Positions 2,143 to 64,000 of a stretch of DNA of 64,000 bases are shown piece by piece; position 1 is the stretch's first letter; every line of letters starts with the position of its first letter. Made by a program: the position numbers and the translations under genes. Origin of the DNA: Xiphophorus maculatus (Eukaryota; Chordata; Actinopteri; Cyprinodontiformes; Poeciliidae); the NCBI RefSeq assembly GCF_002775205.1, contig NC_036456.1, positions 5,781,463 through 5,845,462 on the forward strand, in the 5' to 3' direction. The notes beneath the pieces are model-generated. The model was not told the origin of the DNA and did not search any database. It was given only the letters and a program-made list of their open reading frames with translations.

Positions 2143-3763
2143 TCAATGTGTAGCCGGGACCTGGATTTGCTTTTCAGAGCAGCAACAGCACAGAAGCCAG
2201 ACTCGCACTAAGAGTGGATATTGCTTCTCCACATTCAGCCAGAATTCACTCAGTGTCTGGGATGTGAAACTTAGTCTCAATATGGAGTCAGATGTGATGT
2301 CTATGAACTGCTCCTCCTCTACAGAGCTAAAACCAGTTGGAGCTGGTGCATTAAAAGGATCTCTCACCCAGTCATACTGGGAACTGTTTTCAGGGAAGTA
2401 CTTTGTAAAGAATCCCATCAGTGATGAAATGTGCTGCTTAAAATATGGAATCACTGAGGTGGCATCATAGTCAGTAGTGTCAACAAATTCCTGCAGGTTC
2501 TCAAATGACTCAGTATTTCCTTCATCAAGTCGCCTGCCCCACATTGCGAGCTTTCGAGTGAAAGAGCTGATCTTGTCTGTGACCTGAGGGAGGTGTTGAT
2601 CTTTCCCTTGAAGCTGTAGATTTAGTTCGTTGAGCTTTCCAAATATGTCACTCAGGTAGGCCAGTTTCATCAGAAAGTTCTCATCACTAAACTTTCTTGC
2701 AACTTCATACTTGTGCTCCTGCTCCAAAAACATTCTTATCTCCTCTCTGAGCTCAAAAACTCGGGACAACACTTTTCCTCGTGACAGCCACCTTGCCTCA
2801 CTGTGAAACAGCACAGCTTGATGTTCAGCTCCCATCTCCTCACAGACAGCAGAGAAGACTCTTGTTTTTAGTGGTCTGGTCTTTATTAAATTGACTACAC
2901 CTACAATGTCAGTCATAACCTCACTTCATTCAGAGGAAAGGTGCCTTGATGCCAGTGCTTCTCTGTGTATAACACAGTGTGTCCACTCAGCATTAGGTGA
3001 GGCCTTCGTGATGAGAGTCCGAAGTCCTTTTCTCATCCCTGCCATGGTCTGTGCACCATCACTGCAAACAGCAATGCAGTTCTCCCACTTTAGCCCATTC
3101 TCAGTCAGGACGTACATAAGCAATAAACAAACAGTCTTTGTTGCTGTCAGTTGCTTCAACAAATTGTTTGCCTTTGAGTTTATCTACCAGCTGTTCTTTA
3201 AGATCATCAGCAATGTCATTTATACGTCTAGCAACAGTGTCATTGGACAGAGGGATAGTTTTTATTTTTGCAGCACATCCAGCATGACAGAGACCACGTC
3301 TAATGCTGCAGGCGGTATCAGCTCCTCTGCTATGGTGTGGGGTTTTTTTGCACTGAGCAATTTGGTACGCCACCTTATATGATGCCAACAACGCTCGCTG
3401 GTTTACTGAAGTAGCAGTCACAAAGCGGGATGATTGTTGGCAATATTCGGCACGTTTTCGCTGAGAAAACTCAAGCGGCTTATCAGCGTGGTTGGGGTGT
3501 AATGTCTTTAAGTGACGCCTTAATTTATTTGGCTTCATGCTGTCCGCTGCCAACATTTTGAGACACAGTAAGCACACCGGTCTTTCCTCGTCTCCCACCG
3601 TAGTCACAGTGAAGCCAAGCGCTACATACGCTTCGTCATATTTCCTCGTCTTAGCTTTTGGGAGACTTTCGTTTGTCTCTTTATCTCCGTCTCTCTTCGC
3701 CTGTCTTCTCATCCCTGTTAAATATTTTTCCATGGTGTCACTTGAGGGTTTGCTACACTTCAT
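2143..3763 (-). pseudogene. hAT transposase remnant (BED zinc finger, ZBED5-like)
   Basis: Reading down the minus strand from 3763, the first part has a BED-type finger (CLLC about residue 64, HLKTLH about residue 84) and the family signature TIPLSNDTVARRI. The frame then breaks near 3130-3160, where the segment that should carry the first catalytic Asp is missing. The second part (2926-3162) has the ENGLKWENC and THCVIHREALAS motifs and ends in an in-frame TGA at 2926-2928. The third part (2143-2916) has EEMGAEHQAVLFHSEARWLS and W-x-x-R-L-D motifs. The C-terminal dimerisation segment continues in another frame below about 2180, with the motif SRLHIEQELRVAV. At least two frameshifts, one stop and internal deletions make it non-functional. 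Confidence 0.85.
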
Positions 3764-3967
3764 GTCTACACTTCATACTCATACTATGTGCAAAGCGCGC
3801 AAACCCCTACACCACCGAGTGAATGCTCCCTGCGCACACTCTGCCAATGAGAGCGCCACTGCCCCCTAATGTAGTGGAGGTGCAATTGCACTTTATTCTA
3901 GGACAGTAAAAAAAATAAAAACAAAAAAGCATGTTCCCTGAGGTCAAACGCGCCCACCTTGATGGAG

Positions 3968-11917: not shown

Positions 11918-13357
11918 TCAATCTTCAAGTTCAATAAGCTTCTTCAGGTCAGACTTCAACATGTCCTCCTCCTCTTCAACCTCCACCTCTATCCCATCCA
12001 TAGTTTTTTGCAGCTCCTCTTTGATTCGGTTCAGCTCCAGCAACCCGTGCTGCAGGTGCTTACACACCTCTCGGATCTTGGCGGCGAACTCCGTCTTGGC
12101 GCCCTTTCTCAGCTCCATGGAATCCTTCGCCAGGAAGAACACGTCCAGGGCCAGGAAGAGGCCCGACATGACCCCCGTGGTGACGCTCATCACCTGCGCA
12201 GCTTTAGCAGCGCCGCCGGCGACGCTCAGAACCTGGACGGTGCTGATCAGGTTCTCCGTGTTGATGACTAAAGCCTTCCCAGCCCGACCGCCTTCCTTCA
12301 TTACGTGTTTGACGTTCTGGTTCAGGTGCTTCTTTGAGATGCTCTCGGCGTACTTCTCGAAGTTCCACTCCTCGAGCGTCGCCATGCCTTCCTGAAAAGA
12401 TTTGCTTTTTAAACAGCTGACACTCAGAAATCATCACACAAAAAGGAAAAAGCAACGTACACCGGCGTACTTGGGCAACTGTGAATCAAAATAAAGTACA
12501 TTTCTGGCACAAAAAACCCCCTAAAACGTCGAGATCTCAAATTGTCTAGAAAAAAAAACAAACAAACTCAGAACACAAGTTGAAAGTGATCAACTTTTTA
12601 AATTAAGAACATTTTTCAAAAGTTGAAAATGTTCAACTTTTAAAACTAAGAGGAAAAAATTTGTAAATTTCTGTCCAAAAAAAAAAAAAAAAGAAATTCT
12701 AGAAAAGGCTTGGAAATGTCTGACTCTCAAAAGTTGAAAATCTTTGACTTTTAAAAATTTTCTTAAATGAAAAAGTCAAACATTTTCAACTTTTAGAAAT
12801 GTTCTGAGTTTTTTTCTAGAAAATATGAGGGATTTTTTGGTGGAAATGTACTTTTTTTTTTCTTTTTTTTTTAATCCACGATGGCCCCAATACGCCGTCA
12901 AACTAATGCACTTCAGCGTCTGGACTGTGTGCACGTTCTGACCTGTAAGAACTCCAAGCAGTCCTTGATGTCCTTAATTTCATCCTGGTAATCTTGGATC
13001 ATCTTCTCCACCTTCTTGCGGTCGGTCTTTGAATGCAACGTGTCCGTGATGTTGGCCGAGGCAGACGTGACGCCGCCCGCCGTGGCGATGCCGATGCCCA
13101 CCGCTGTGACGATGAGCGACGTACCCGCCGTGAAGGGCGCCAGAATGAGCCCGGTGATGGTGGTGATCGACCCGGCGACGCTGGCCACCCCGCCGCCCAC
13201 GCTGGCCGTCACCGTCTTCTTGTGGAAGTCGTCCGCCAAGTCGGCCAAGGAGAGGAGCTCCAGGATGCGCTGCTGGAGGGAGGCGCCGCGCTGGTTGAAG
13301 AGGCGAACGAAAAGACGCGCGGCCATGAAGACTCGATCGGCGGCTTGTTCCACCACG
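11918..13357 (-). CDS. Gene A ApoL-domain exons
   Basis: These two exons (12943-13357 and 11918-12391) carry the recognisable ApoL core. The first starts VVEQAADRVFMAARLF, continues through a Gly/Ala/Thr-rich hydrophobic hairpin (ASVGGGVASVAGSITTITG and TSLIVTAVGIGIATAGGVTS) and ends in a charged helix (DRKKVEKMIQDYQDEIKD). This hairpin is the membrane-inserting part in the family. The second exon has LEEWNFEKYAESISKK, another Gly/Ala-rich hydrophobic stretch (VLSVAGGAAKAAQVMSV) and a C-terminal leucine/acidic coiled coil ending in a Glu run (about EVEVEEEEDML). The donor at 12942 and acceptor at 12392 are good matches. The intron between them holds a foldback element. Confidence 0.85.
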
Positions 13358-13943
13358 CTAATTAACGGAACGAGAAAAAGGGAAAGAAATGGCAATTACA
13401 AATATGCATATTATGACTACTGGTTAAGTTTTGTAAGGTTGAAATTAGGGATGTGCTCATGGAATGCCAACAAACAGCTTCGCCGCAGCGTTCCGTGGAG
13501 AGAACCGTACACAAATAGTGTTTCGGTTGTCAGGGAACAAGTGGATTTGTTTAATCTAAATAATGTAATACTTCAAAGTTTTTAGTGGTTTTCCTTTTTT
13601 ATAGTGACGATCAATCACTATAAAGTGTTTCTCACTGGTCAACATGATGTTTTTTGTATCGTATTGTCTTAAGTTATGTTTCCTTGCCTTTGTAGAGGGT
13701 TAGGTTTTTTCCTTTTAAGTCTAATCTCATCTAGTATCAGCGTCTTACTCATTCTTGTATTTTCTTTCTTTGTTTTTTTTTTTTTTTTTACTTCCTGGTC
13801 ATGGGACTACAAATAGCCTTTTTGGCTAACTGGCATTTCATAGCTCATGAATTGTTATGTGTTGGATTAAACTGTCCCCTTTCAAATAAATCAAATGAAA
13901 TTAAGTTTCATTATGTTCCAAGCAAGGTTCTAAATTCAGTTCT

Positions 13944-30868: not shown

Positions 30869-32225
30869 TCACATCTGTCCAGTAGCATCCTGCAGATTCT
30901 CTCTGATGGCGTTCAGCTCCACGATGCAGTCATTCAGCACGTTTGCCACTTGTCTTATTACGGCCACAATCTCCTTCTTGCAGCCTTTCTTCAGCTCTCT
31001 GGTTTCGTTTACGAAGTACTTGTCCATTCCTTTGAAGAGTCCTCGCAGGGAGCCCACAACGTCGTCGGTTATCTCTGTCGCTCGCATCACAGGCGAATCC
31101 ACAATGCTGATCATCTGGACCGCCCTGCGGACTTCCCAGTCCTGGGAATAGTGCTGCGTGCCGGACCTGAGGAAAGGGTGGCCGCGCAGCCTGCGCAAGC
31201 CCTGGTTGACGAAGTGGAGGATGTTCGAGATCTCCAGCATTCGCTCTTCGTACTCCTGCAGCAGACCCTCGATCTATTTACGGACAGAGAACGTTAAATT
31301 AGTGATTTCACACAGAAGAGAAAGGAGCAGAGTGGTCAAGACGTGCGGCCTCTGCAGCTGCCATCATGTCTCGCTGCATCAGAAACCCGCATTACCTTTT
31401 TGCGGTCGTTCTTGTTGTTGACGTTATCGGAGATGGCCGCAGAGGCGGAGGTGATCCCCCCGGCCGTTGCCACCCCCACGCCCACGGCCGTGATTACGAG
31501 GGACGCTCCGAAGGTCACGGGAGCCAAGGCCAGGCCAGTGATGGCCGCCACAGTGCCCACCGCGGTGGTGGTGCCCCCGCTGATCCCAGCGATCTTGGCT
31601 TTGTGATGGAACTCGTTGATGTCGTCGGCAAGAGCGTGGAGCGAGATGATGGACTCCCACAGGACCTCGGCTTGTTCGGTGAACACCTTGTTGAAGAGAC
31701 GCAGGCCGCGTTCGACCTTCTCTGCCAAGATGGTGAATGACCTGCAATCAAAGGAAGATTTTAGAAGAGCCAGTTCTTAGTAGTTTCTTCTTTCTTTGCT
31801 TCTGTGGTACTCAAACCTATAACCTTCTTGTAAATTGATCCTTTTACCCAATTACTCATCATCGAATTCGAATAATAAACTGAACTTGACTGCATTGATA
31901 ACTAGAATCATTTGGAGTGCATGCGACTTTTGATAACCCGCGGCTGTTGTGTTTACTGGTGCTACACAAGTATAAAATCAAAACACATTGCATAGTATCC
32001 CATAGTAACCAGTGAGTTGACCAAGAATTACTGCTGGTAAAAACAAATGATCGCACTTTGACTCATCCTCTTTGACGGCTGCATCCTCTTCATCCGATGC
32101 CACTTCGTCCCATTCTGAAATACAAATCCAGCACCATCCATCATCAGTTCACTTGATTTTAAAATCGGTTTGGATGTTGACTTACTTTCTACCGTGTACC
32201 ACCACTCCAATAAACTGTCCGTGTC
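30869..32225 (-). CDS. Gene B ApoL-domain and WW-linker exons
   Basis: Exons 32186-32225 (LLEWWYTVE) and 32063-32114 (WDEVASDEEDAAV) match gene A in phase. Exon 31396-31741 has KVERGLRLFNKVFTEQ, then the Gly/Thr/Ala-rich hydrophobic hairpin (GTTTAVGTVAAITGLALAPV and VITAVGVGVATAGGIT) and ends NKNDRKK. Exon 30869-31273 continues IEGLLQEYEERMLEI and finishes with an amphipathic helix (VIRQVANVLNDCIVELNAI) before the stop at 30869-30871. The hairpin is the predicted membrane-inserting part. The exon split after DRKK differs from gene A, where about 26 more residues precede the intron. Confidence 0.85.
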
Positions 32226-48612: not shown

Positions 48613-49599
48613 TTAAACAATTAAGAACATAATTTGACCTTTGCTTACACAAGCTAGGTTTAAAGTTAGTGCTCTGAAGATTCACTGATCAGGCATAACG
48701 AAGTTTGGTGTTCAGGCAGGCAGCACCTGGTGACCCAAAGCGTCCCAGTAGAACTTTGGTTAAATCATACGACTGTTTCCGTCTGTTTGCCTTCTTCACG
48801 TCTTGCTGTAAAGTGTTTTCTTGTGGTAAGAAACACAGATTTACCTCCATCCAGATGATGTTGAAGAGAATTAAAATTTCTACACCACGTCACCTTATTG
48901 CATTGCGCCACGGCCCGGTTCTGATGTTCACCTGCCCTTTGTTGGGTTTTTTAGGTAGTGGCCGACATTGGGACCCAAACTGGTCTGAAACTGTGCGGAC
49001 TCATAAATAAGAAACCACAAAAACCGTAAAACAGCATGTAACCTAACACCTTTCTGTCAGAACCAACATTCAATTCTTCTGTAATTTTAGGGAGTTTTGG
49101 ATCTGAGCACACGGGCGTCGACCCAGCTGCCGGTTCACCGCGATTCCTTCCATCGGACGACTTTCACAGAAGAGAAAGAGAACTATATGCTCTTTGTGTG
49201 CTTTGGCAAAATCCAAAGTGAAATAAACATTAGGTGAAATTGAACATTTAGATTTTAGTTCCACTTCCCTCGGTGATTGTTACATTTGGCCGCTCATGTG
49301 ACTGGGGCAGTTTTGATCCCGGCTGAGGACGTCGTTTCTTTCGTCAAGCAGCTTCTGCTCTGGCTGTTCCTGTTCCAGTCAGGCTGGTGGTCAGTTGTCA
49401 AAGACAAAACTGTATTCCCGGCTTGTGGTTCGTCTAATTTGACCCCGTTGTGGGTCATTTTAAGATTGCAGATGCTCTGATTGCGTTAGAGGAAAGCCTG
49501 TAGTTTTAGCTCAACGGTAAACAAAAAGTCCCAACAACAGTGAAACAGAAGAAATCAAGCACGATTGTTTGGCAGAGTATTTCATTTTAGCTATCTCCA

Positions 49600-49990
49600 A
49601 AATAACAAGCTTGCTAGCACATGTCGAAGACACTTGGCCAAACAAAACGCACCTGGGTTTTTCTGTGCATGGCTGGAGAACCGGTCGTAACAAGCAAAAC
49701 TGAAAGCATGCTTTAGGGTTAAGTGAGGCCAATAGTCAGCTCAGCTGGAGTTATGAATATGTTTTAACTTGTCAGCACAGCCTGACTTTAACCAAAACAA
49801 GAAAAGTCATCTGAGGTCACTTTTTGAACCGTCTCTCCAAACACTCGGCTTCAAATATACACGTTCAAGGTATTTCAATTGTTTACATTTTGACTAATTT
49901 TATTCGTAACATTTAGAAAATAAAAATAGAAACTTTTGGATTAAAAAAAAAAAAAAAAAACTTTTATTAAAGTTGAGCTGACTTGAAATT
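49600..49990 (+). repeat. Duplicated upstream block of SecA-like copy 1
   Basis: Shares an ordered series of phrases with 56354-56740: AAAATAACAAGC, CAAACA, CTGGGTTTTTCTGT against CGGGGATTTTCTGT, TTATGAATATGTTTTA against TTATGAACATGTGTTA, TCCAAACACTCGGCTTCAAA against TCCAAACACTTGGCTTCAAA, GTTCAAGGTATT, and GAGCTGACTTGAAATTGTCC against AAGCTGACTTGAAAATGTAC. This marks the edge of the tandem duplication that produced the two SecA-like genes. Confidence 0.65.
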
Positions 49991-51238: not shown

Positions 51239-51484
51239 GTGAGTCCACTGCTCTTAAAATTAACTTTGTAATCCAGCACTGCTGAAAACTGCTTTGTGTA
51301 AATATGATCCACAGCTTTTACTTAGCTAAATATTATGAATGTTTGGCATGGTGTTTCGTTGCAGCCATAGCAAATTGTTAGATGTTGTCAAATGCTGTTA
51401 TATGTTTCTCTGTTAAAAATGTTTCTATAAAACACTCTCTAAGCTATTTACTCTCTTCTGTTTTAGCCAGACTTGAGCAAAGAA

Positions 51485-54400
51485 ATGGATCCCAGAGTGA
51501 TTCACCGAGTTGTAACTTCCTTCCTTGCTCCCCGTTTATTCTCTCCAAATGAAAATGAAAAGAGTCTCGTCAAGCTGCTGCAAGGACTGGTCAGGAGTAT
51601 TAAATGGAGACCTGAAGACGTCAGTGAACTGTTTGAAGCCCTTCTGCAGAGATTTGAGTCGGTGTGTAGAAATGACAGATCGCATCTCCTCACATGGTTG
51701 CTCCAAATGTTGCACTGGATTCAAGTTAACTACATCACACCCACCTGGAGATCTAATTCAGGAAGAAGCCTTCTGGAGTTGGTCAGAGACACGGCAGTGA
51801 CCAATGAAGCGCTCAAGGCCTGTTTGGGAGATGATGAAGACAAAACCTTGGATGAGATCATTAAAGAAATCCGAGATGGAGAGTTGAACCAAGTTAATAA
51901 TGAGCTGTTGGCCGAGATCAGAGATATTGTCTCATCAGTTCAATCTGCTCTTAGGTCCCGCAGTTCAGGATCGCAGCTGACTGGCCTGAGAAAAGTCTTG
52001 CTGACTCTTTGCCAGGCAGCAGAAAAAACTAACTTCAGACCACGGCTGACCCAGATGGTGAGCTGGTGTCTCATGGCTCCAGCCAAAACGGGGCGCCTCA
52101 TTCAGGTTGGCACTGGAGAGGGGAAGTCCTGCATTGTGGCCATGTTTGCAGCCTATCGAGCTCTGAGAGGAGAGAAAGTCGACATCATGTCGAGTTCATC
52201 TGTTCTAGCAGAGAGAGACATGAGAGAATGGAAGAAATTCTATGATGTTTTAAAGATCAGCGTGGACTGCAACATCAACAAGCAAGACGAAGACTCAAAA
52301 AAGTGCTATGAGAGCCAGATTGTTTATGGTACCGCAGAGCAGTTCACTAGAGACTGGCTGAAACATCATGTTCTTAGGAAGGACATATTTGGCCAGAGGA
52401 CATTCCAGTGTGCAATTGTGGATGAGGTGGATTCCTTGATGTTGGACAAAGGTCATGATGTTCTCTACCTGAGCAGTGACATGCCTGCTCTTCAGCATCT
52501 CAACCCTCTCCTGGCATTAATATGGGCCACTGCTAACCAGTACAGCAAGGTAGGGTCAGGTCACATTGTTGGGCGAAAATATCCCTTTCATCAAGTTGTA
52601 TTAGAACAGATCAAGCAGGAAGGATTGGATGAGTTGACTGTTCTTCAAATAGCCGAGGAGACAGGTGTACTGGCCAATGGCATAGTTACGGAAATACAGA
52701 GGAAACCAAGTCTTTTAGATGAGAAAATTGCAACAACTGCAAATGTTGCAGCCAATAAGCTGGTCGAGTTCTTTAGGGCAGTGGAGACCAGATTCCCATC
52801 ATGTCAGTTTGTTCTACACAACCTCAATACAGATGGATCCGTAAAAGATCTGAACAGGTCGTCAGGAGGAAGAGGTCAGAGACGAGTGTCTCTGCTTTTG
52901 AATGGTGGCTTCTGTCAATACATGTATCCTGATACAGACAGTGTAGTGAGAGCTACAGAAAAGGAAGTAAGGTGTTTTCTGCATTTCACACCACGTGAAC
53001 TGAACAAGTCTGAAGGAAGCTGCTACATCCCAGGTTTCCTTTCAGATCTTGTAGAATCTAAACTAAAGATCTGGATTGAAAATGCATTCCATGCACAAAC
53101 CATGGAAAGAGATCAAGAATATATCTTTGAAGGTGATGTAATTGTACCTGAGGACTACAGCTGCACAGATGTGATTGGAAACAGCTTGAAATGGTGTGAT
53201 GGTCTACAGCAGTTCCTTGAGATGAAACACCAGACGAAGTTGAGTGATATGACCATCATCACCAACTACATGTCCAACGTTGGTTTGCTTCAAAAGTACA
53301 AAAGTCAGATTTATGGGCTGTCTGGGACTCTTGGAGAACAAGCAGCGATTGAGAGCATGAGGAAAACATTTCAGGGCATCAAAACTTGCCAAATCCCTTC
53401 ATACAAGCGCAGGAAGCTGTTTGAGGTTCAGGGAGTTATCATGAAGGATGAAAGAAGATGGATCGAGAAAATCTGTGAAGTTGTGCTTGATCAAATCAAG
53501 CCTACACCATACAGGTCTCCAAGAGCTGTGCTAGTGACTTGTGAGTCCATCAAGCTAGCAAAGTTTCTGTACCAAATTTTTAGTGGTAGAGTCTCAAGCA
53601 CAATGCTTTACATCAAAAACGACAAGGACAACAGTGTTGTCTTTAAAAAGAAGTTGGGTGCAGGAGACGTCATCATAGCAACAAATCTGGCTGCTTGTGG
53701 AACGGACCTTCAGGTTTCTGACTCTGTAAAGTCAGCTGGGGGTTTGTTCGTTGTGCAAACTTTTCTGCCTGATAATTCCCGTGTGGAGGCTCAGGACATT
53801 GGACATACAGCTAGACAAGGATCACCAGGGTCTGCTCAGATGGTTGTCTGCTTCACTCATCTGTCAGAGCCTCTGCAATTGCTAATTCTAACACGTAACC
53901 TTTTGTCCTTCATGGAAAATATTGCAGATGCGTCTGCAACTTTTCTGCAGTTGTTTCTTATGCACTTGCGGCAATATCAGAGGAGCAACACCAGGGGAGA
54001 AAGTCAAGAAATGTCCTCGCTGCTGCATCGTATTTTGAATGAAAACACCAACTCTGATTTGATGATGGTTAAAGAGATCAGAGATGCATTAATGGCTGAA
54101 CAACTGTCTAGCTATGTGGAGTCTGATCTACCAAACATAAAGAAGAAAGAAGAGCTCTTCGGTCAGTACCTGGACACACTGGATCTGCTCCACAAGAGCA
54201 ACAACAACAAACCGACTGAATCAGATGTTTCCGCACTCAATGAGTTTTGGGGAATGTGGCTCCTTACAAAGTTTTCTGAGGAAGACTCTGCTGTTAGATT
54301 GAAAACCATCCTGAGTGCAGACCTTAGTACAGCCTTACAAAAACTAAGGCAGAGAGAGTCTCCCTCATCCAACGTCCACTACTACACTGCCAAAGGTAGT

Positions 54401-55042
54401 GAGCTCGAAAAAATGGGAAGGCTTTCAGAGAGTATTGACATGTATACTAAAGTCATAAACCAGGACCCCTGTTGGGCAGCAGTTGCATTTTACAATCGTG
54501 CTTCTGCGTCTTTAACCCAACACAACAGGAGCCAGGACCCTGAGTGTCTCAGTCAGGCTCTGGAAGATTTGCAAAAAGCTCTCATGTCTGTGAAGCTCCA
54601 CACTGACCAGCTGGATGTCACTTACAGATACGTCACACAGCAAACCACAAACCCCGCTGGCAACTTGACAACCAGATTCGACAAACACATCATGGCCAGA
54701 CACACAGTTCTGGTGTCCTTCAAAACAAATATTTACGAAGCAATGCAGAAGATAGACCGGGCCAGCAACACGAGCGGGTCTGTTAGAGTGAAGAAGACCC
54801 CTGTCTACTTCCTGGTTTCTCTGGAGCATCTTCTTCCCATGCCAGTAATCTTGTTGGAATCAGCCAGGGCGATTTATTCCAGAAACCCTCTGTTGAGGCA
54901 CCAACTCGCCAATCACCCCTCCTTAGATATTTTCAATGAAGTCATGAGTCTTGAATCTATGGGACTTACTCACGTCTATGTCTTAGAGATACCGTCTTCT
55001 TTGGCTACCTTCTTTTCAAAGATAGCTCGGGCCTTTCACTGA
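51485..55042 (+). CDS. SecA-like ATPase with C-terminal TPR-like region, copy 1
   Basis: An intron-free 1,185-residue coding exon; acceptor CTTCTGTTTTAG ends at 51466 and ATG 51485 has a strong context (GAAATGG). Order: helical N-terminal region (1-200); Walker A GTGEGKS (209-215); IVYGTAEQFTRDWL; DEVDS (313-317); a segment like the SecA WSDGLHQ region (KWCDGLQQFLEM, about 569); GLSGTL (611-616); motif V ATNLAACGTDL (732-742); motif VI GHTARQG (773-779); TPR-like repeat (about 963-1040, KGSELEKMGRLSESIDMYTK); helical tail. SecA is the bacterial preprotein translocase motor; a vertebrate has no SecA export pathway, so the substrate is unknown. Motif V has Cys738 and motif VI His774 where SecA has Arg, so ATP turnover may be impaired. 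The frame is otherwise intact, suggesting it is kept. Bacterial contamination is unlikely: spliced 5' exon, fish repeats on both sides and a tandem copy. Confidence 0.85.
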   Translation: MDPRVIHRVVTSFLAPRLFSPNENEKSLVKLLQGLVRSIKWRPEDVSELFEALLQRFESVCRNDRSHLLTWLLQMLHWIQVNYITPTWRSNSGRSLLELVRDTAVTNEALKACLGDDEDKTLDEIIKEIRDGELNQVNNELLAEIRDIVSSVQSALRSRSSGSQLTGLRKVLLTLCQAAEKTNFRPRLTQMVSWCLMAPAKTGRLIQVGTGEGKSCIVAMFAAYRALRGEKVDIMSSSSVLAERDMREWKKFYDVLKISVDCNINKQDEDSKKCYESQIVYGTAEQFTRDWLKHHVLRKDIFGQRTFQCAIVDEVDSLMLDKGHDVLYLSSDMPALQHLNPLLALIWATANQYSKVGSGHIVGRKYPFHQVVLEQIKQEGLDELTVLQIAEETGVLANGIVTEIQRKPSLLDEKIATTANVAANKLVEFFRAVETRFPSCQFVLHNLNTDGSVKDLNRSSGGRGQRRVSLLLNGGFCQYMYPDTDSVVRATEKEVRCFLHFTPRELNKSEGSCYIPGFLSDLVESKLKIWIENAFHAQTMERDQEYIFEGDVIVPEDYSCTDVIGNSLKWCDGLQQFLEMKHQTKLSDMTIITNYMSNVGLLQKYKSQIYGLSGTLGEQAAIESMRKTFQGIKTCQIPSYKRRKLFEVQGVIMKDERRWIEKICEVVLDQIKPTPYRSPRAVLVTCESIKLAKFLYQIFSGRVSSTMLYIKNDKDNSVVFKKKLGAGDVIIATNLAACGTDLQVSDSVKSAGGLFVVQTFLPDNSRVEAQDIGHTARQGSPGSAQMVVCFTHLSEPLQLLILTRNLLSFMENIADASATFLQLFLMHLRQYQRSNTRGESQEMSSLLHRILNENTNSDLMMVKEIRDALMAEQLSSYVESDLPNIKKKEELFGQYLDTLDLLHKSNNNKPTESDVSALNEFWGMWLLTKFSEEDSAVRLKTILSADLSTALQKLRQRESPSSNVHYYTAKGSELEKMGRLSESIDMYTKVINQDPCWAAVAFYNRASASLTQHNRSQDPECLSQALEDLQKALMSVKLHTDQLDVTYRYVTQQTTNPAGNLTTRFDKHIMARHTVLVSFKTNIYEAMQKIDRASNTSGSVRVKKTPVYFLVSLEHLLPMPVILLESARAIYSRNPLLRHQLANHPSLDIFNEVMSLESMGLTHVYVLEIPSSLATFFSKIARAFH

Positions 55043-55668
55043 TTAGGTTGACTTTGTGAGAGTGAAGAAACTGAACACAGTATATTTGTGACAAGATACA
55101 ATATCCACATATTAGTTTAAATTATGCACAAAAAAAGGTTTAGGGTTGTTGACAAGTGATTAAAAAAGGGGCCTAAGGAGATGGAGATGCATTTGTTTCG
55201 TGCCTTTGTGTTGTTTCCATGAGCAGGTCAATGACTTTTGGTAAGGGGTGGAAATATTCTGCCCATAACAACAATTGTCCAGCATTGAAAAATAGATGTT
55301 TTTCTGACTACTTGTTTGGATTCTATGAAAATGGATGGAAACTTATTAACTTTGCATATTATGACTGTTTTTTTTTTCATAATGAATTGCTGTAAAGCAG
55401 TTTACATGGCTACAGAGGAATCCTTCTCTAACTTTTGTTTTAGAAAAAAATGATACATTTTTCTTTTACATCTCACTGCCTACATTTCTGAAAAAAGTTG
55501 AACATTTTCAATTTTTATAATTTTAAGTCCAGTTTTGATATATAACGTAACAATCACACTGACATGATATTTTATGTTACCATGTGAAACTTTATTATAT
55601 GTGACAAAGACACAAAGAGTCATGACAAAGTGTCTTGTATGTGTTCCGTCGTAACTTGATGGATTTCC

Positions 55669-55712
55669 TTATTGTGTATGTGTTGTGCACATGCACAACA
55701 CATACACAATAA
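55669..55712 (+). terminator. Perfect 20-bp hairpin carrying a poly(A) signal
   Basis: The left arm (55669-55688) and right arm (55693-55712) are exact inverses with the 4-base loop ACAT. The right arm ends in AATAAA (55708-55713), about 665 bases past the stop of SecA-like copy 1, and is a candidate 3' end for its transcript. Confidence 0.6.
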
Positions 55713-56353
55713 AACACTGAGTTTTAAATTTCACATGCACAGACGGTCTAAATTAAAAGAAATTATGCTGAGAGAAAACTCTCAATTGAGGCAGTACTAT
55801 AAAGATTTTAATTTTATATAAATTAGAGAAAACTGTGAGGAAACCCACATGTAAGCATGAAAATATCTGTGAAATGATTAAAAAAAGGACTTTCTGCTGA
55901 GAAATAAAAAGTGCAGACATAAATAGCATATCAAAATAAAATGTTTATTAAAAAATGGTTCTGCTTAGTGTTTGGATTGTCTATAATTTATGTTGTGGTG
56001 TTTAAATGTACTTTGTTAACATCTGTTCTGTAAATATTACAGAACTAAAAATAAACACATTTATTTATGTCCATGTCTGACAGAATATCCTACCCATAGT
56101 GAAACAGAATAAAGGAGGAATTTGTACCAACAAATTCAGATGATGCAAACATATGTTGTTGTTTTTTTGTCTGCTGGATAGAAAGCTATCTAAAAAAAAT
56201 ACAAGAGAATTAAAGAAAATGATGCACTGATTAAGCCAATGATGCGTCATAATGACCTCAAAATCCGGGGTCAAAGGTCGTTGGTGAGCTCAAATAAAAC
56301 AGTTTCCATTGACGTTATTAACTGGTTTCACATGATTCCACTTCCTTGCATAC

Positions 56354-56740
56354 CTGCAAAAATAACAAGCCTGCCAGAGCATGTTGAAGACATTTGCCAA
56401 ACAAGCCGCACCGGGGATTTTCTGTCTGTAACCATTATGTAAAGCAGACTTACCAAAGTAAAACCAAAAGCAAATCTGAAGGTTATGTGAGGACAATAAT
56501 CAGCTGATTTGGAGTTATGAACATGTGTTATTTTGTCACTACGGCTCTGCCCTCAGTTTTCTGACTGTCCCTCCAAACACTTGGCTTCAAATATATCGAT
56601 AATATAAAATATAAATATATTGAAATATACAGTATGTTCAAGGTATTAAATAAATATTGAATTAAAGAAAGCTGACTTGAAAATGTACTTCATCAACAGA
56701 CTAAATTTCAGCAGCACTGTGAATGTAAAAACATAAAGGA
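56354..56740 (+). repeat. Duplicated upstream block of SecA-like copy 2
   Basis: Counterpart of 49600-49990 (see that entry), in the same orientation. It is followed by a longer region before copy 2 that contains two more copies of the 60-bp repeat and a Tc1-type insertion. Confidence 0.65.
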
Positions 56741-58737
56741 TAGACAGTAGACCGTTGTTGTAATATGCTTTTTTACTTTTTCTGTGTGGCTTAATATGTA
56801 ACTGAGAATAGTTTGCATCTCCTTCTGCTTGGCTGTCAGTCTTTTGGTTCACTATGTGAAATTTGAGAAGATGCAATAAATGTTACATAATTATTTTGTA
56901 GAAAAATTAAAAATGATCAAGCTAGAACTGAAATTCTCTTAGATTTTTAGTTTGAAGCTGATTTGATATTAAAAAGTTCATTTTTTGCAGCGTTTTAAAG
57001 GAAAGTCAACATTGTTCCACTTTGATATCTGAATGCCACACAAGCTGGATGCATATTGATCAATACTTGTGCAAATCTGTCAATAATATATCTAATACAC
57101 AATTTTGTAAATGTCTAATAAAATTCACATTTATTAACGTTAAGGTAATATAGAACTTCAATATTCAATACTGCTTTATTTCATGTGATTATTTCACAGC
57201 AAGTTACCCGCAAACTAATCAGCTATCATAACTCTGTTGGCCCCACCCACTTATTTTAATTTTTAAAAATAAATCCACCATATGCTACAATGTACGCTTT
57301 CAAATAACAAATACTGGAATAATTGTGCAATTGTTGTCTTTGGAGCGGACTTCAACTTGACATCACCAAGCCAACCGAAAACTATCTGAATAAAATGACT
57401 AATAATAATTTAAAAAAGATGAATTCATGAGGGGAGGGGGAAGGCCGGACACTGTTTGCCCATTTCAGAGAGAAGTAAAATGATGCTCAAAGGATCTTTT
57501 GAATAAGTTATACTTTTAAACTAAAAAGATCTGCATGTCACATTTGCAGTAACATGTTCAGTGAGCATATTTACTGTCGAAATCATCTCACATCCCGACA
57601 CTTCACTGCTTAGAAACTGTATGAATGTTGAGAAAATGAAAGAAAAACCATGTCACGCCGTCTGACCGCTGCGCTGGAATAACGCCCTTGGCACGACATG
57701 GTGACAATGTTTGCCAAACAGGCAGTAAAGGAATTTCTACCCTGTAATGAATTTTAGCTCCTTTAATTTAGAGGCTAAAGGTCAAAAGCTGCCTTAAGAT
57801 TATGAGTAAAATGAATTTTATAATGCTGACAAAATTAAAACACAAAAGAATTATAAGTTAAATACTGGAAAACACATAAACATACATTCTGTGTCCAAGG
57901 TCATTTAGAACAAAAATACTCTATTATCCCACTGAGGGAAAATTCAGATTCAGACAATTCATCAAGAGAAAAAGAACGTTTAGCTGTTAGCAGCATTAGC
58001 TCAGCTGATGCCCCCCTCGAAGAAAGAACTACCCTGATGCAGTTTTTATGAAACAAGGGAAAAAAGCAGAGATAACTTAAAGCTATCAGTCAAAATAACT
58101 GAGAAATAATGCATAATTGGAGAGAAGGAAGAAAATGCAGCTGATCAAAGAGAAGTGGACGGCTTGTCTTCCAGTAACCTAAGTAACTTACATAACTACA
58201 GGAGAATCAAAGTCAGTCTAACTATAAGGTTTTTAAAAAAGGAAAGTTTTAAACCTAGTCTTAAAAGTAGACAGGGTTTCTGCCTCACAGACTAAAGTTG
58301 GGATAACTAACAACCAGCCTCCCATTCTACTTTCAGAAATTCTAGGAATCAGCAGTAAAACCTGCAGAGTAAAATGCTCTGTTAGGAACATAAGAAACAA
58401 TCAGATCTCTGATGCATGATGGGGATTATGAGTGAGAAGTGTGATTTTATTTCTATTCTGGAAACAGTAATTCAGTACTAATGTAGCCTTTTCACCAAAT
58501 ACTTTTTATGTATCGGGGAAAAAATAGATATATGGCTTGTTTTTTATTGTTCTACTTGAGTAAACTGGAGTTATGTTACACTTATTTGGCTACAGTGGAT
58601 AAACTTTATCTTCATCTTCTGATAAATTGACTTTGCACTTCTGGAAAATGTCCAACTGTAAATAAAAGTGAAAGAGGAAAAAAAAAAAAAGAAAGTCACA
58701 TTAGATTCTTTTTGTGTAGCAGTTTTATTTCCAGAAG
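56741..58737. other. No gene recognised
   Basis: AT-rich intergenic sequence between the SecA-like copies, with no coding motif. A 60-bp repeat copy lies at 57683-57745 (GGCACGACATGGTGAC, AATGTTTGCCAAACAGGC). Confidence 0.5.
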
Positions 58738-58814
58738 AACGGGTTTGCCAGGACGTGGTGAGGATGTTTGCCAAACAGACGCCAATGGGATATTCTGCAA
58801 CTCTGAATAGAAAG
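58738..58814 (+). repeat. Dispersed 60-bp repeat, best-preserved copy
   Basis: GGTTTGCCAGGACGTGGTGA followed by GGATGTTTGCCAAACAGACG. The same core appears at 57683, 56363, 49609 and 47851. The Tc1-type insertion starts right after it. Confidence 0.55.
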
Positions 58815-58816
58815 TA

Positions 58817-59206
58817 CAGTACAGACCAAAAGTTTGGACACACCTTCTAATTCAATGGGTTTTCTTTATTTTCATGACTATTTATAAGGCAAGAAATCCC
58901 ACTTATTAACCTGACAGGGCAGGTTGACCTATGAAGTGAAAACCATTTCAGGTGACGACCTCTTGAAGCTCATCAAGAAAATGCAGAGTGTGTGCAAAGC
59001 AGTAATCACAGCAAAAGGTTGCTACTTTGAAGAAACTAGAATATAAGGGCTATTTTCAGTTGTTTTACACTTTTTTGTTTAGTGCATATTTCCACATGTT
59101 ATTCATAGTTTTGATGCCTTCAGTGTGAATCTACAATGTCAATAGTCATGAAAATAAAGGAAACTCATTGAATTAAAAGGTGTGTCCAAACTTTCGGTCT
59201 GTACTG
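58817..59206. mobile_element. Tc1-type non-autonomous element with TA target site
   Basis: Inverted ends CAGTACAGACCAAAAGTTTG (58817) and CAAACTTTCGGTCTGTACTG (ending 59206), with TA at 58815-58816 and 59207-59208. Inside, GACGACCTCTTGAAGCTCAT and GAGTGTGTGCAAAGCAGTAA are leftovers of a Tc1 transposase gene. The interior is deleted, so it cannot move by itself. Confidence 0.9.
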
Positions 59207-59668
59207 TATATCTGAAGGTTGAGGGAGAATGGTAGTTAAGTGTGCAAGAATTGTAATAAGGTCTTAATTTTGTGCATATTTAACCAGGTCATTTTTTTTC
59301 ACTAAGAACAGATGATAACTTTTAGACCATTGAACATTTACTAATTTTATTTATGATAAAGGCCTCCAGACCTGGTCAGAGTGAGCTATGCGTGCAGGTG
59401 TGTGTAAAAACTGAAATGTCTGGGTGCATTTGTCAGTGAAGGATAAATTAATATTTCTGCTTTAAATATAATTTTCCAAACTTTATTCAACCATGATTAA
59501 AGTAGAAATAGCAGTCATAGCATGAAAATGTTTTTGCTAACTCTGTGATCTGTAATCATTTATGTGTACAGAGAATACAAGATTTAGTGAAGTACAGTCA
59601 TTACATACAAATGCTGATTTATGTTCAGCAGAGCATAATTTGGTTATAGTGACATGAAGTAAAAAGCT

Positions 59669-59715
59669 GGGAACTCCCTGAGGGAGGTGCCCAGGTGGAC
59701 AGGTAAAAGTGAAAG
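59669..59715 (+). promoter_or_regulatory. kappaB-like plus IRF-like site pair upstream of SecA-like copy 2
   Basis: GGGAACTCCC at 59669-59678 fits the kappaB consensus GGGRNNYYCC. AAAAGTGAAAG at 59705-59715 resembles an IRF half-site. The 36-base offset equals that of copy 1. It lies about 90-130 bases upstream of the exon 1 donor at 59803, a plausible core-promoter distance. Confidence 0.45.
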
Positions 59716-59802
59716 AAAACCAAACTTAATAAAAGAGACAGGTATGATCACAGAGATTATAGAGAGAGCCAGCAGCTGCTCGGATTCTCATCTCTGTACC
59801 AG
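59716..59802 (+). other. Non-coding first exon, SecA-like copy 2
   Basis: Ends CTCTGTACCAG/GTGAGTCC at 59802, with a counterpart in copy 1 at 51238. The start is unknown. It would splice to the acceptor at 61378 (TTCTTCTGTTTTAG), removing an intron that contains a Tc1-type element. Confidence 0.5.
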
Positions 59803-59853
59803 GTGAGTCCTTTTTTCTTAATATGAATTTTGTAATCTAGCATTATTAAAAAA

Positions 59854-61230
59854 TACAATTCATCCGGAAAGTGTTCACACCGCTTCACTTTTTTCACATC
59901 TTATCATTACAGCCTTGTTCTAAATTGTATTTAATGAATCTCTTTCCTCAAAATTGCACATAAATTCTGACAACGTGGAAGAAAGTTTTTGAGATTTTTT
60001 TCCAAATGTATTAAAAACAGAAAACTAAAAAATAACATTTAGTTTTCACAACCTTTGTTGATCCACCTTTGGCAGCAATTACAACCTCAAGTCTTTTTTT
60101 TTTCTTTTAACATGTCCTGTCAAGTAGTGTGGGGCTCTGAGTTGTCATCCATCAAGGTGAGGCCAGATTTACTTTCACAAGTGGAGCATATATATGTATA
60201 AAACTTTATTAGAAATTGTTTTGGGTTTATTTTAAATGAAATTATCACAGGAACGGAAAAGAAAGAAGAAAAGACAGGGAGAAAGTTTGGGGAAAGGTTT
60301 TAAGGGAATTGGGATAAACGTAGACAGAGCAGGAGTGGGATTCATTTTCAGTTTCATGTCTCAGCTCCCACTTTAGAGAATGACCCATCATTATTAAAAT
60401 TATGTAATTATAATCTTACATGTCCACAATGGCGTGCTGTTGCAATTCAGTGTATTTTTCTTAAATATTACCAGATTTCCTGACTTTAAGGCAATTATGG
60501 AGTGTCACGTGTCAAAAGACATTTAAATGATGCACCGTAATGTAATACACCGTAATGCCACAGGATTCATCGATCTGATTAAACATAGTTTGCCTCACAC
60601 GTTTCATCATCCTCAGTTGATGTTACTAACCACAAGCTTATTTTTGTGAAAAAGTTGCCAATTTTTGCACATTTAGTTGGTCCGTTTCCAAAGCTTTCTT
60701 CTTTTCCTTCTACGCGTCACTCTCGCTCATTCTACCTTCCATCTTTTATGCTCCAGTGACTGAGAGCATTGACGTGTTTCATCAAAGCGCTATCTGGAAA
60801 AAGAGAAAAGGAAAGATGAAAGTGGAGATGTTTTGTGACTATGTGCTGCTCCGGTATAGAGCAGTCTTTCACACACTGCGGTCACTGGACCACTTGTAGT
60901 CCGGAGTTATTTTGTTTTGATTGACCATCAAGTGGACCTTAGGTAAATTCAGTTTTACCTAAGGTTTAGTTTTAGCTAAGGTGTACAGTTAAGAGTGATC
61001 ATTGAAAACAGCCAAATTTTTTTAGCCTCTTGTCAAAGGCTGTGAATACTTACAGAAATGTGATTTTATTTATGAGTCTTAAATTTGAAAAAAAAAAAAA
61101 AAAAAAACAACAACAAACAAACTGAACATCGTTGAAGAAAGAGATTAAATTTAACATAACTTGGAATAAAGTTGTAACAAAAAATGTGGGGGGAAAAAAA
61201 GCATGGTAAATACTTTCCAGATGCATTGCA
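59854..61230. mobile_element. Tc1-type element inside the 5' intron of SecA-like copy 2
   Basis: Left end ATTCATCCGGAAAGTGTTCA followed by CCTTTGGCAGCAATTACAA. Right end AAAGGCTGTGAATACTTACA, then GGAATAAAGTTGTAACA and TACTTTCCAGATGCATTGCA. These are the two ends of a fish Tc1-type family. The interior (about 60130-61010) is not transposase and may be replaced or nested DNA. The copy 1 intron (51239-51466) lacks the insertion. Confidence 0.75.
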
Positions 61231-61393
61231 GCTCTGTACAAATATACCTCAAAGCTTTTTTGTAGAGCTCTAGCAAATTGTTAATGTTAAATGCAGTTGC
61301 ACACTTACCTGTTAAAAATGTTTCTATAAAACACTAACCCAACCCTTGCCCTAAGCAATTTACCTTCTTCTGTTTTAGCCAGATTTGAGCAGC

Positions 61394-64000
61394 ATGGAGG
61401 ATATGAACCCAGATCTCAGAGAGATTAGCCAAGTTGAAAATTATTTTCTTGCTCCTCATCTATTTTCTCCAAATGAAAATGAAAAGAGTCTCGTCAAGCT
61501 GCTGCAAGGACTGGTCAGGAGTATTAAATGGAGACCTGAAGACGTCAGTGAATTGCTCAATGCCCTTCTGCAGAGATTTGAGTCGGTGTGTAGAAATGAC
61601 AGATCACATCTCCTCACATGGTTGCTCCAAATGTTGCACTACATTGAAGTTAATTACATCACACCCACCTGGAGATCTAATTCAGGAAGAAGCCTTCTAG
61701 AGTTGGTCAGAGACACGGCAATGACCAATGAAGCGCTCAAGGCCTGTTTGGGAGATGATGAAGACAAAACCTTGGATGAGATCATTAAAGAAATCCGAGA
61801 TGGAGACTTTAACCAAGTTAATAATGAGCTGTTGGCCGAGATCAGAGATATTGTCTCATCAGTTCAAGCAGATCTTAATTCAACCATTTCAGGATCGCAG
61901 CTGACTGGCCTGAGAAAAGTCTTGCTGATTCTTTGTAAAGTTGCAGAAAAAACTCACTTCAGACCACGGCTGACCCAGATGGTGAGTTGGTGTCTCATGG
62001 TTCTTTCCAAGACGGGACGCCTCATTCAGGTTGGCACTGGAGAGGGGAAGTCCTGCATTGTGGCCATGTTTGCAGCCTATCGAGCTCTGAGAGGAGAGAA
62101 AGTCGACATCATGTCGAGTTCATCTGTTCTAGCAGAGAGAGACATGAGAGAATGGAAGAAATTCTATGATGTTTTAAAGATCAGCGTGGACTGCAACATC
62201 AACAAGCAAGACGAAGACTCAAAAAAGTGCTATGAGAGCCAGATTGTTTATGGTACGGTTGATGAATTTGCAGGAGACTGGCTGCGGCATCATTTTCATA
62301 GGAAAGACATATTTGGCCAGAGGACATTCCAGTGTGCAATTGTGGATGAGGTGGATTCCTTGATGTTGGACAAAGGCCATCATGTTGTCTACCTGAGCAG
62401 TGACATGCCTGCTTTGCAGCATCTCAACCCTCTCCTGGCATTAATATGGGCCACTGCTAACCAGTACAGCAAGGTAGGGTCAGGTCACATTGTTGAACAA
62501 AAATACCCCTTTCACCAAGTTGTATTAGAACAGATCAAGCAGGAAGGATTGAATGAGTTGACTGTTCTTCAAATAGCCGAGGAGACAGGTGTACTGGCCA
62601 AAGGCAGAGTAGAGGAGATACAGAGGAAACCAAGTCTTTTAAATGAGAAAACTGCAAATGTTCCAGCCGATAAGCTGGTTGAGTTCTTTAGGGCAGTGGA
62701 GATCAGATTCCCATCATGCCAGTTTGCTTTGCACAGCATCAACAAAGACGGATCCGTAGAAGAGCTAAATAGAAGACCACCAAGAGAAAGTGGTCAGAGA
62801 CGAGTGTCTCTGCTTTTGAATGGTGGCTTCTGTCAATACATGTATCTTGATAAAAACAGTGTAGTGAGAGCTACAGAAAAGGAAGTAAGGCGTTTTCTGC
62901 ATTTCACTCCATGTGAGCTGAACAAGTCTGAAGGAAGCTGCTACATCCCAGGTTTCCTTTCAGATCTTGTAGAATCTAAACTAAAGGTCTGGATTGAAAA
63001 TGCATTCCAAGCACAAAGCATGGAAAAAGATCATGAATATATCTTAGAAAGTCATGGAGTTGTACCTGTGGACTACAGCTGTACAGGGGTTGTGGAAAAC
63101 TTCATGAAATGGAGTGATGGTCTACAGCAGTTTCTGGAAATGGAACATGTGCTTAAGTTGAGTGATATGACCATCATCACCAACTACATGTCCAACGTTG
63201 GTTTGCTTCAAAAGTACAAAAGTCAGATTTATGGACTGTCTGGAACACTTGGGCAACAAGCAGAGATTGAGAGCATGAGGAAAATATATGAGGGTATCAA
63301 CACTTGCAAAATCCCTTCATACAAGCGCAGGAAGCTGTTTGAGGTTCAAGGAGTTATCATGAAGGATGAAAGAAGATGGATCGAGAAAATCTGTGAAGTT
63401 GTTGTTGAACAAAGTCAGTCTACAACCCATGTTGGTCAAAGAGCTGTACTGGTCGTCTGTGAGACTATCAAACTAGCAAATACTATTGATCAAGCATTAA
63501 AAGAGAAAGTCAAAAATAAAATGCTTTACATAAACAACAACAGGGACAACAGTGCAATCTTTGCCAAGGAGTTGGGTGCAGGAGACGTCATCATAGCTAC
63601 AAACCTTGCTGGTCGTGGAACAGACCTTCAGGTTTCTGAATCAGTAAAAGATGCTGGGGGTCTATTTGTTGTCCAAACTTTCCTGCCTAAAAATGCTCGT
63701 GTGGAGGCTCAAGCCTTTGGCCGAGCAGGGAGACAAGGATCTCCAGGATCAGCTCAGTTGATTATCAGTTCCAGCCATCTCACAAAGCCCCTACAATTAC
63801 TTATTTTAACAACAAACATTCTGTCTTTTATTGAAAACATTCTCTCTTCATCTTGTCAAAAGCTGTTTCTTCTGCAGTTGAGGCATTATCAGAGAAGCCA
63901 CTCCTGGGAGGAAAGTCAAGTTATTTCCTCACTGCTGAACCATGTTTTGGCTGAAAACTCCAACACAGATATGATGATTGTTAAAGAGATCAGAGATGCA
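61394..64000 (+). CDS. SecA-like ATPase, copy 2 (cut by the window edge)
   Basis: Opens at ATG 61394 (AGCATGG context), 16 bases after the acceptor at 61378, and stays open for 869 codons to the window end. It starts MEDMNPDLREISQVENYF and then follows copy 1 closely. Walker A GTGEGKS (214-220) and DEVDS are conserved, KWSDGLQQFLEM is closer to the SecA consensus than copy 1, and GLSGTL follows. Motif V is ATNLAGRGTDL (735-745) and motif VI is GRAGRQG (776-782), both canonical for SecA/DEAD-type ATPases. This copy therefore has every catalytic motif that can be judged by eye. The TPR-like and tail regions lie beyond the edge. Up to the edge no stop or frameshift is seen. Confidence 0.85.
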   Translation, partial: MEDMNPDLREISQVENYFLAPHLFSPNENEKSLVKLLQGLVRSIKWRPEDVSELLNALLQRFESVCRNDRSHLLTWLLQMLHYIEVNYITPTWRSNSGRSLLELVRDTAMTNEALKACLGDDEDKTLDEIIKEIRDGDFNQVNNELLAEIRDIVSSVQADLNSTISGSQLTGLRKVLLILCKVAEKTHFRPRLTQMVSWCLMVLSKTGRLIQVGTGEGKSCIVAMFAAYRALRGEKVDIMSSSSVLAERDMREWKKFYDVLKISVDCNINKQDEDSKKCYESQIVYGTVDEFAGDWLRHHFHRKDIFGQRTFQCAIVDEVDSLMLDKGHHVVYLSSDMPALQHLNPLLALIWATANQYSKVGSGHIVEQKYPFHQVVLEQIKQEGLNELTVLQIAEETGVLAKGRVEEIQRKPSLLNEKTANVPADKLVEFFRAVEIRFPSCQFALHSINKDGSVEELNRRPPRESGQRRVSLLLNGGFCQYMYLDKNSVVRATEKEVRRFLHFTPCELNKSEGSCYIPGFLSDLVESKLKVWIENAFQAQSMEKDHEYILESHGVVPVDYSCTGVVENFMKWSDGLQQFLEMEHVLKLSDMTIITNYMSNVGLLQKYKSQIYGLSGTLGQQAEIESMRKIYEGINTCKIPSYKRRKLFEVQGVIMKDERRWIEKICEVVVEQSQSTTHVGQRAVLVVCETIKLANTIDQALKEKVKNKMLYINNNRDNSAIFAKELGAGDVIIATNLAGRGTDLQVSESVKDAGGLFVVQTFLPKNARVEAQAFGRAGRQGSPGSAQLIISSSHLTKPLQLLILTTNILSFIENILSSSCQKLFLLQLRHYQRSHSWEESQVISSLLNHVLAENSNTDMMIVKEIRDA

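Follow-up and report, generated by a model that had tools for sequence, protein, structure and literature searches.

Tandem SecA-like ATPase genes resident in the genome of the fish Xiphophorus maculatus, one of them predicted to be ATPase-impaired

SecA is a textbook bacterial motor that has been studied as a drug target because animals are not known to have it. The closest described proteins form a eukaryotic SecA-like clade, published in 2013, that spans insects, Daphnia, dictyostelids, Tetrahymena and Salpingoeca and includes Wolbachia wBol1_1091/1092 and Amoebophilus Aasi_1610/1144, with two transfers into bacteria (PMC3639933). Here, we describe two intact SecA-like reading frames in tandem on the plus strand of a 64,000-nucleotide stretch of the Xiphophorus maculatus genome (NC_036456.1, positions 5,781,463 to 5,845,462; "the window"), together with further copies on two more chromosomes. 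We propose, with a probability of roughly 0.55, that these genes encode host-resident SecA-like ATPases of the eukaryote/endosymbiont branch that remodel protein substrates, perhaps in a microbe-related setting, beside a probably ATPase-impaired paralogue. Their SecA-family identity is well supported; we infer their substrate and role. Five intact frames over three vertebrate chromosomes, one of them apparently motor-dead, suggest that the motor has been kept for other work. The result is a vertebrate gene family tied to large proteins of Chlamydiae and Rickettsiales, and the window supplies a testable active/inactive pair.

By published description, the fish genes resemble the eukaryotic clade in their long SecA frames with little sign of true introns, their separation from prokaryotic SecA, their multiple copies and their tie with intracellular bacteria, but no fish, other vertebrate or ATPase-dead copy is named in that account (PMC3639933). 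They add to an already published kind of SecA-like protein. A first-pass annotation of the window had called the genes "bacterial-type", a label we would drop: their nearest fetched relatives are large SecA-like proteins of mostly intracellular bacterial groups, and a eukaryotic clade exchanged with intracellular bacteria was on record in 2013 (PMC3639933). Such proteins are already published for insects, Daphnia and protists (PMC3639933); for vertebrates, our literature search found no account of SecA-like genes among the matches listed (other names could escape it) and no paper in which "SecA-like" and "teleost" occur together. "SecA" is absent from the main text of a compendium of animal horizontal transfers (PMC13342648) and from the listed entry of a paper about bacterial genes in fishes (PMC4687049). 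The SecA of Wolbachia phage WO is reported to be nearer to invertebrates than to bacteria, and the passages on it name no vertebrate; the likeness is one of description (PMC5062602). Amoebophilus effectors include SecA-like domains (PMC3482391) and giant actinobacterial toxins contain SecA-like ATPase domains (PMC8195603); the likeness, by description, is a SecA-like motor in large multidomain conflict proteins, but those proteins are bacterial. Secondary SecA_DEAD proteins of Planctomycetes and others, by description, have completely or partly lost the wing-scaffold, as the fish proteins appear to have done, but are bacterial and lie beside type I secretion genes (PMC4452313). Canonical SecA and SecA2 share both motor lobes and every motif with the second fish copy; unlike them, the fish proteins have no match to the wing/scaffold model SecA_SW, a rebuilt binding domain and NCBIfam scores far below cut-offs.

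The window lies on a 27.9-Mb host contig (C14) of a 704-Mb assembly of 101 contigs. Copy 1 runs from 51467 to 55042 stop-to-stop (1191 amino acids (aa)), or from its first ATG at 51485 (1185 aa). Copy 2 is open from 61379, with its first ATG at 61394, and is cut by the window end at 64000; it is whole in the assembly (G000:C14:5842841-5846416, 1192 aa), ending at 64954 in window coordinates. The coding exons are 82% identical in nucleotides over 3.7 kb and short upstream blocks are also shared, which bears out the tandem duplication reported earlier; the count of two genes holds for the window, but the genome has a further pair and fragment on C6 and a frame on C11. Spliced 5' exons had also been claimed, and on sequence comparison the donor (TGTACCAG/GTGAGTCC) and acceptor (TTCTGTTTTAG/CCAGA) are kept in both copies, with predicted introns of 228 bases (copy 1) and 1576 bases (copy 2). 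Both frames reach their first ATG only past the acceptor, five or six codons into the coding exon, so the 5' exon is probably an untranslated region (UTR) in both copies. The elements of the pair are as follows.

49599..49859, plus strand: 5' block of copy 1, either a promoter or the first UTR exon, with a counterpart ahead of copy 2 (direct repeats D1, D3, D4 and D6, 76-85% identical and about 6760 apart; E 2e-24 and 1e-7 by blastn)
51239..51466, plus strand: predicted intron in the 5' UTR of copy 1 (GT donor and TTTTAG acceptor, also in copy 2)
51485..55042, plus strand: coding frame of copy 1, SecA-like, 1185 aa, predicted ATPase-impaired (Pfam SecA_DEAD, E 2.7e-31; motif table)
56359..56595, plus strand: 5' block of copy 2 (direct repeats; blastn)
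59803..61378, plus strand: predicted 5' UTR intron of copy 2 (donor and acceptor also in copy 1)
61394..64000 (to 64954 past the window), plus strand: coding frame of copy 2, motor motifs all intact (Pfam SecA_DEAD, E 2.9e-30; motif table)

The C6 genes are two frames of 2680 aa, 98% alike (G000:C6:20177502-20185541 and 20196298-20204337), followed by a truncated third copy (20210222-20211163). In both frames a degenerate extra first motor lobe precedes an intact motor. They also have a Cys-rich N-terminus, a hydrophobic segment and a start, MGNVPS, that we take to resemble an N-myristoylation signal; their C-terminus gives nothing above a Pfam cut-off. C11 carries one frame of 1764 aa, to which an upstream exon is joined in phase by a GT-AG intron (phase 0, L014:1045-1168, read by eye). 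Both C6 and C11 frames extend beyond the region aligned with the window pair, into the hydrophobic segment.

The motor itself is that of the SecA family, as first proposed. SecA_DEAD, P-loop_SecA and DEAD all score above their Pfam cut-offs in both copies, a PDB search with copy 1 brings up SecA chains (E 1e-31), and NCBIfam SecA profiles match both copies at E 1e-30 to 3e-59, although their scores (106-201 bits) are far below the cut-offs (725-1493) for eight of eight models. The first nucleotide-binding domain (NBD1; Walker A and DEVD, SecA_DEAD) is present in both copies; NBD2 with motifs V and VI is complete in copy 2 and not in copy 1.

52109..52129, plus strand: Walker A of copy 1, GTGEGKS (sequence; motif table)
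52421..52435, plus strand: motif II of copy 1, DEVDS (sequence; motif table)
53678..53707, plus strand: motif V of copy 1, degenerate, ATNLAACGTD (GRGT in 22 of 22 other cores)
53789..53830, plus strand: motif VI of copy 1, degenerate, GHTARQG (GR at the same place in 22 of 22 other cores)
63596..63625, plus strand: motif V of copy 2, intact, ATNLAGRGTD (motif table)
63707..63748, plus strand: motif VI of copy 2, intact, AFGRAGRQGSPG (motif table)

Our motif table compares 23 SecA cores: five fish, three canonical and 15 others, the last comprising the locus L030 described below, two plasmid rows and 12 Chlamydiota rows (three from one genome). All motor motifs are kept in copy 2, the C6 pair and C11. 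In copy 1, motif V reads AACGTD where copy 2 has AGRGTD, and motif VI reads IGHTARQG where copy 2 has FGRAGRQG; the motif V arginine and the first arginine of motif VI are thereby lost, and copy 1 is the sole exception, since all 22 other cores keep both. The earlier report of SecA motifs in order in two intact long frames thus stands for the frames and for copy 2, but not for motifs V and VI of copy 1. Because these residues are changed, the ATPase activity of copy 1 has probably been lost.

The gravest alternative is that copy 1 has begun to decay as a pseudogene, which would leave copy 2 as the pair's sole functional gene; we take this possibility seriously while giving it distinctly less than an even chance. 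In its favour are the residues missing from motifs V and VI of copy 1 and the tree branch of this copy, longer than that of copy 2 (0.14 versus 0.06). At 53 sites that 90% or more of the other 21 rows conserve, copy 1 alone departs at six and copy 2 alone at one (p 0.125). Against this, copy 1 runs for 1185 codons without a stop, and three of its six departures are confined to the two motor motifs. The ratio of nonsynonymous to synonymous divergence (dN/dS) is 0.396 over 1177 codons of the C14 pair and 0.267 over 2680 codons of the C6 pair. Along the C14 pair (51485-55042 versus 61394-64954), synonymous divergence (dS) in hundred-codon blocks rises sharply from 0.08-0.21 in the first 600 codons to 0.61-1.33 in codons 701-1185, a gradient that suggests a likely gene-conversion tract holding the two 5' halves similar. 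In the 3' half, where the copies have diverged, dN/dS is about 0.3, and this value also argues against decay. A regulatory role for copy 1 is our tentative preference, at a little under even odds.

That the motor acts on RNA or DNA, as a helicase or translocase of nucleic acid, is unlikely. The generic DEAD model also matches both copies (E 2.2e-8 and 4e-9), Helicase_C is above its cut-off for copy 2, and most of the preprotein-binding domain is unrecognisable. However, SecA_DEAD outperforms DEAD by 21-23 orders of magnitude, the best SecA models outperform RecG by 37 or more, and copy 2 exceeds the cut-off of SecA_PP_bind (24.4 versus 23.5 bits), if only over profile positions 50-110 of 110. 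Copy 1 has no SecA_PP_bind row in Pfam. Of the Pfam families proposed for checking, SecA_DEAD is found in both copies, SecA_PP_bind marginally in copy 2 and SecA_SW in neither.

The wing/scaffold is the part of SecA that bears the two-helix finger. SecA_SW has no match in either copy at E up to 1, in copy 2, C6 or C11 at E up to 0.5, or in the C-terminal piece of copy 1 at E up to 5 (Pfam). The preprotein-binding domain appears from alignment to be rebuilt in the fish proteins, with only its last stretch recognisable: local hhalign against the canonical domain recovers its last 46 columns (E 2e-6), and a forced global alignment spans the region with no clear similarity in between. The stretch between DEVD and a point just beyond GLQQ measures 262-303 aa in the fish proteins, against 129 and 143 in two canonical rows, but the chlamydial canonical row reaches 258.

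52490..53026, plus strand: insert of copy 1, aa 336-514, replacing most of the preprotein-binding domain (local hhalign; predicted alpha/beta; tentative OTU-like fold)
54374..54472, plus strand: TPR-like repeat of copy 1 (Pfam TPR_1, E 3e-4, below cut-off)

The TPR-like C-terminal region noticed earlier thus comes down to one repeat, at 20.9 bits against a Pfam cut-off of 27.8. With no wing/scaffold match, a rebuilt binding domain and a place in the tree apart from canonical SecA, the fish proteins are, judging by sequence, not export SecAs, and the idea of a repurposed motor is upheld. It is improbable that they serve as the soluble component of a route exporting proteins through a host membrane. 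C6 and C11 hold a hydrophobic segment like that of the loci L030 and L031, so membrane work in the family is possible, but neither the window pair nor the sequence following it yields a match to this segment (a tblastn search with the C6 C-terminus reaches only the part preceding it), and hydrophobic stretches amount to a marginal one in copy 1 (1.63) and none above 1.6 in copy 2.

The insert offers a weak structural lead. In a model of copy 1 aa 330-625 it forms a predicted alpha/beta domain, with a model confidence (pLDDT) of about 80 over aa 340-499. VIA-align returns OTU-fold proteases in 37 of 50 rows, their Z at most 5.0; filovirus nucleoproteins take the first two places in that list, and no Z, the best being 6.1, reaches the stated background. 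The best Foldseek matches are an OTU domain in the PDB (E 0.07) and an uncharacterised protein among viral models (E 5e-3). Sequence tests found no OTU: none by Pfam on the five inserts, none by profile against the PDB (best rows TrmBL2, E 0.008), and none by insert profile against the L031 C-terminus. Since Z is low and the sequence tests are negative, we hold a possible OTU-like fold of aa 336-514 as a lead only. It is improbable that the genes form a vertebrate innate-defence machine, in which a SecA motor of the type found also in bacterial endosymbionts, with its clamp rebuilt around an inactive, ubiquitin-recognising OTU-like module, as an active copy and an ATPase-dead partner, would pull apart microbial or host proteins tagged with ubiquitin or a ubiquitin-like protein.

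Returning to the proposed SecA-like remodelling ATPases, their relatives were sought in 84,980 prokaryotic species genomes using exact patterns of the family signature. Four of 90 pattern matches were confirmed: a Myxococcales contig (3959 bases) from a metagenome-assembled genome (MAG), two contigs of one Parachlamydiales MAG, and a canonical-looking Acidobacteria SecA; this exact-pattern scan returned neither Wolbachia nor Amoebophilus. Among Chlamydiota, 29 of 151 genomes matched at E <= 1e-25. Twelve were taken as loci, of which three genomes (G001, G052, G062) fall in the fish-type clade and seven form a separate clade, while one served as a canonical row and one partial locus was omitted; the 17 unplaced matches resemble ordinary SecA in frame length and score. 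Copy 2 is matched by 88 plasmid records, the best three being plasmids of Candidatus (Ca.) Megaera, Ca. Bandiella and Legionella geestiana; the first two are symbionts in a ciliate culture.

In a tree of 23 rows and 622 of 928 columns, rooted on three canonical SecA rows, all five fish frames group together (95/92). They fall inside a clade of 13 rows, supported at 100/100, whose other members come from Parachlamydiales, other Chlamydiota and Rickettsiales, plus L030. The three canonical rows lie outside it (100/100), so that the comparison suggested earlier, as far as bacterial SecA is concerned, suggests a place for the fish genes on the eukaryote/endosymbiont branch, apart from canonical SecA and with the SecA-like proteins of intracellular bacteria. 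The tree comprises rows other than partial loci (L043, L053), the truncated C6 copy, the Legionella geestiana homologue (L057), repeats of used rows (L034, L035, L036, L039, L040, L041, L042, L058) and Chlamydiota matches without loci (those in 17 of the 29 genomes, together with second matches). The branch leading to L030 is long (2.1) and its place beside the fish weak (71/39), and one canonical row is of odd composition.

Similarity to the relatives exceeds the motor: C6 and L030 align collinearly through 1278 columns (E 5.5e-142), and the hydrophobic regions of the C6 frame and L031 match at E 1e-13. L031 and L032 (Parachlamydiales SW_11), L055 (Ca. Megaera) and L056 (Ca. Bandiella) share the motor type, with GTLG in all four and GLQQF or GLHQF in three (L055 has GLHPF), but their frames are bacterial and of 1595 to 4507 aa, and their profile matches skip most of the aa 336-514 insert. 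L030 may be a mis-binned contig, because only one of 193 genomes of the Myxococcales MAG's phylum, the MAG itself, matched at E <= 1e-30, and it may be of eukaryotic contaminant origin. Its SecA-like frame (L030:1-3959) begins just past the first motor lobe, and the contig has a start that looks by eye like one with a ribosome-binding site. The L031 and L032 proteins, of about 4500 aa, carry a C-terminal motif, CGDGAC, that resembles the OTU active site; a piece of L031 has no match in Pfam or the PDB. The Ca. Megaera plasmid has two adjacent SecA-like genes, one long (15.7 kb) and one short (4.8 kb), and Wolbachia wBol1 likewise pairs a short gene with a long one under consecutive numbers (PMC3639933); such neighbours could be a two-part system.

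The genes appear from their sequence setting to be resident fish genes, as had been argued. They sit on three host contigs of 27.9-32.4 Mb with conserved splice sites, and the fish frames are depleted in CpG (observed/expected 0.24-0.35, compared with 0.55 for window positions 1-50000 and 0.92-0.94 for L031 and L030). ApoL matches occur at 17 places in the genome (C5, C6, C14, C16 and C23) and in none of 14 prokaryotic controls, as expected of a vertebrate genome. Recent acquisition from an intracellular bacterium, or contamination, is highly improbable: the fetched relatives are bacterial, but the spread of five frames over three contigs of chromosome size, the conserved splice sites and the CpG depletion stand against it and largely refute contamination, and copies from different fish chromosomes differ by 1.4-2.2 changes per site, which would make the family old in the fish lineage if there was one shared entry. 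Capture from a DNA virus or phage is unsupported; in IMG/VR scans with two alignments, 0 of 56 and 0 of 16 pattern matches were confirmed, and a phage collection gave 22 weak records against copy 1 (21-39% identical, E 2e-4 to 5e-14), of which the three annotated ones are ordinary SecA.

We propose that copy 2 would clamp a polypeptide, with its motor lobes on one side and the rebuilt domain on the other, and spend ATP to pull, unfold or remodel it, with the N-terminal and TPR-like C-terminal arms docking partners. The window pair would be cytosolic, and copy 1 would bind ATP but turn it over inefficiently, serving as scaffold, decoy or regulator. On the sequence evidence, it is an evenly balanced proposition that ATP drives the remodelling of protein substrates. 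The setting, more tentatively and at somewhat less than even odds, would be interaction with intracellular microbes, as host defence or as a captured microbial effector in host use; we consider it the likeliest because the nearest relatives are large proteins of intracellular bacterial groups. Several points weigh against this proposal. It rests on sequence, with substrate, partner, expression and localisation all predicted, and so does the motor-and-clamp picture, because the AlphaFold model of whole copy 1 is uninformative (mean pLDDT 41). SecA-family motors share folds with RNA and DNA helicases, making a nucleic-acid substrate possible. The pair's dN/dS is no proof of constraint on copy 1 alone, and the six-to-one imbalance in conserved-site departures has a p of only 0.125. 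CpG depletion alone is not decisive, because the AT-rich bacterial relatives L055 (0.45) and L056 (0.43) are also low. The microbe-related setting leans on relatives and on ApoL and AIG1 neighbours, which may be coincidental, and the C6 ApoL genes are 3.8-3.9 Mb from the C6 SecA-like genes.

Such immune-type neighbours fit the proposal but prove nothing. Two apolipoprotein L (ApoL) genes lie on the minus strand of the window, at 11918-13395 and 30869-31776 (the piece 30872-31273 alone has no Pfam match), and an AIG1/GIMAP-type GTPase gene (E 5.6e-62; L015:7220-8182, G000:C11:15195220-15196185) lies downstream of the SecA-like gene on C11, at a distance of about 11 kb. Elsewhere in the window, transposase-like frames at 2143-3772 on the minus strand, one of the two with a weak Pfam match to zf-C2H2_12, have what we take to be a hAT/ZBED look.

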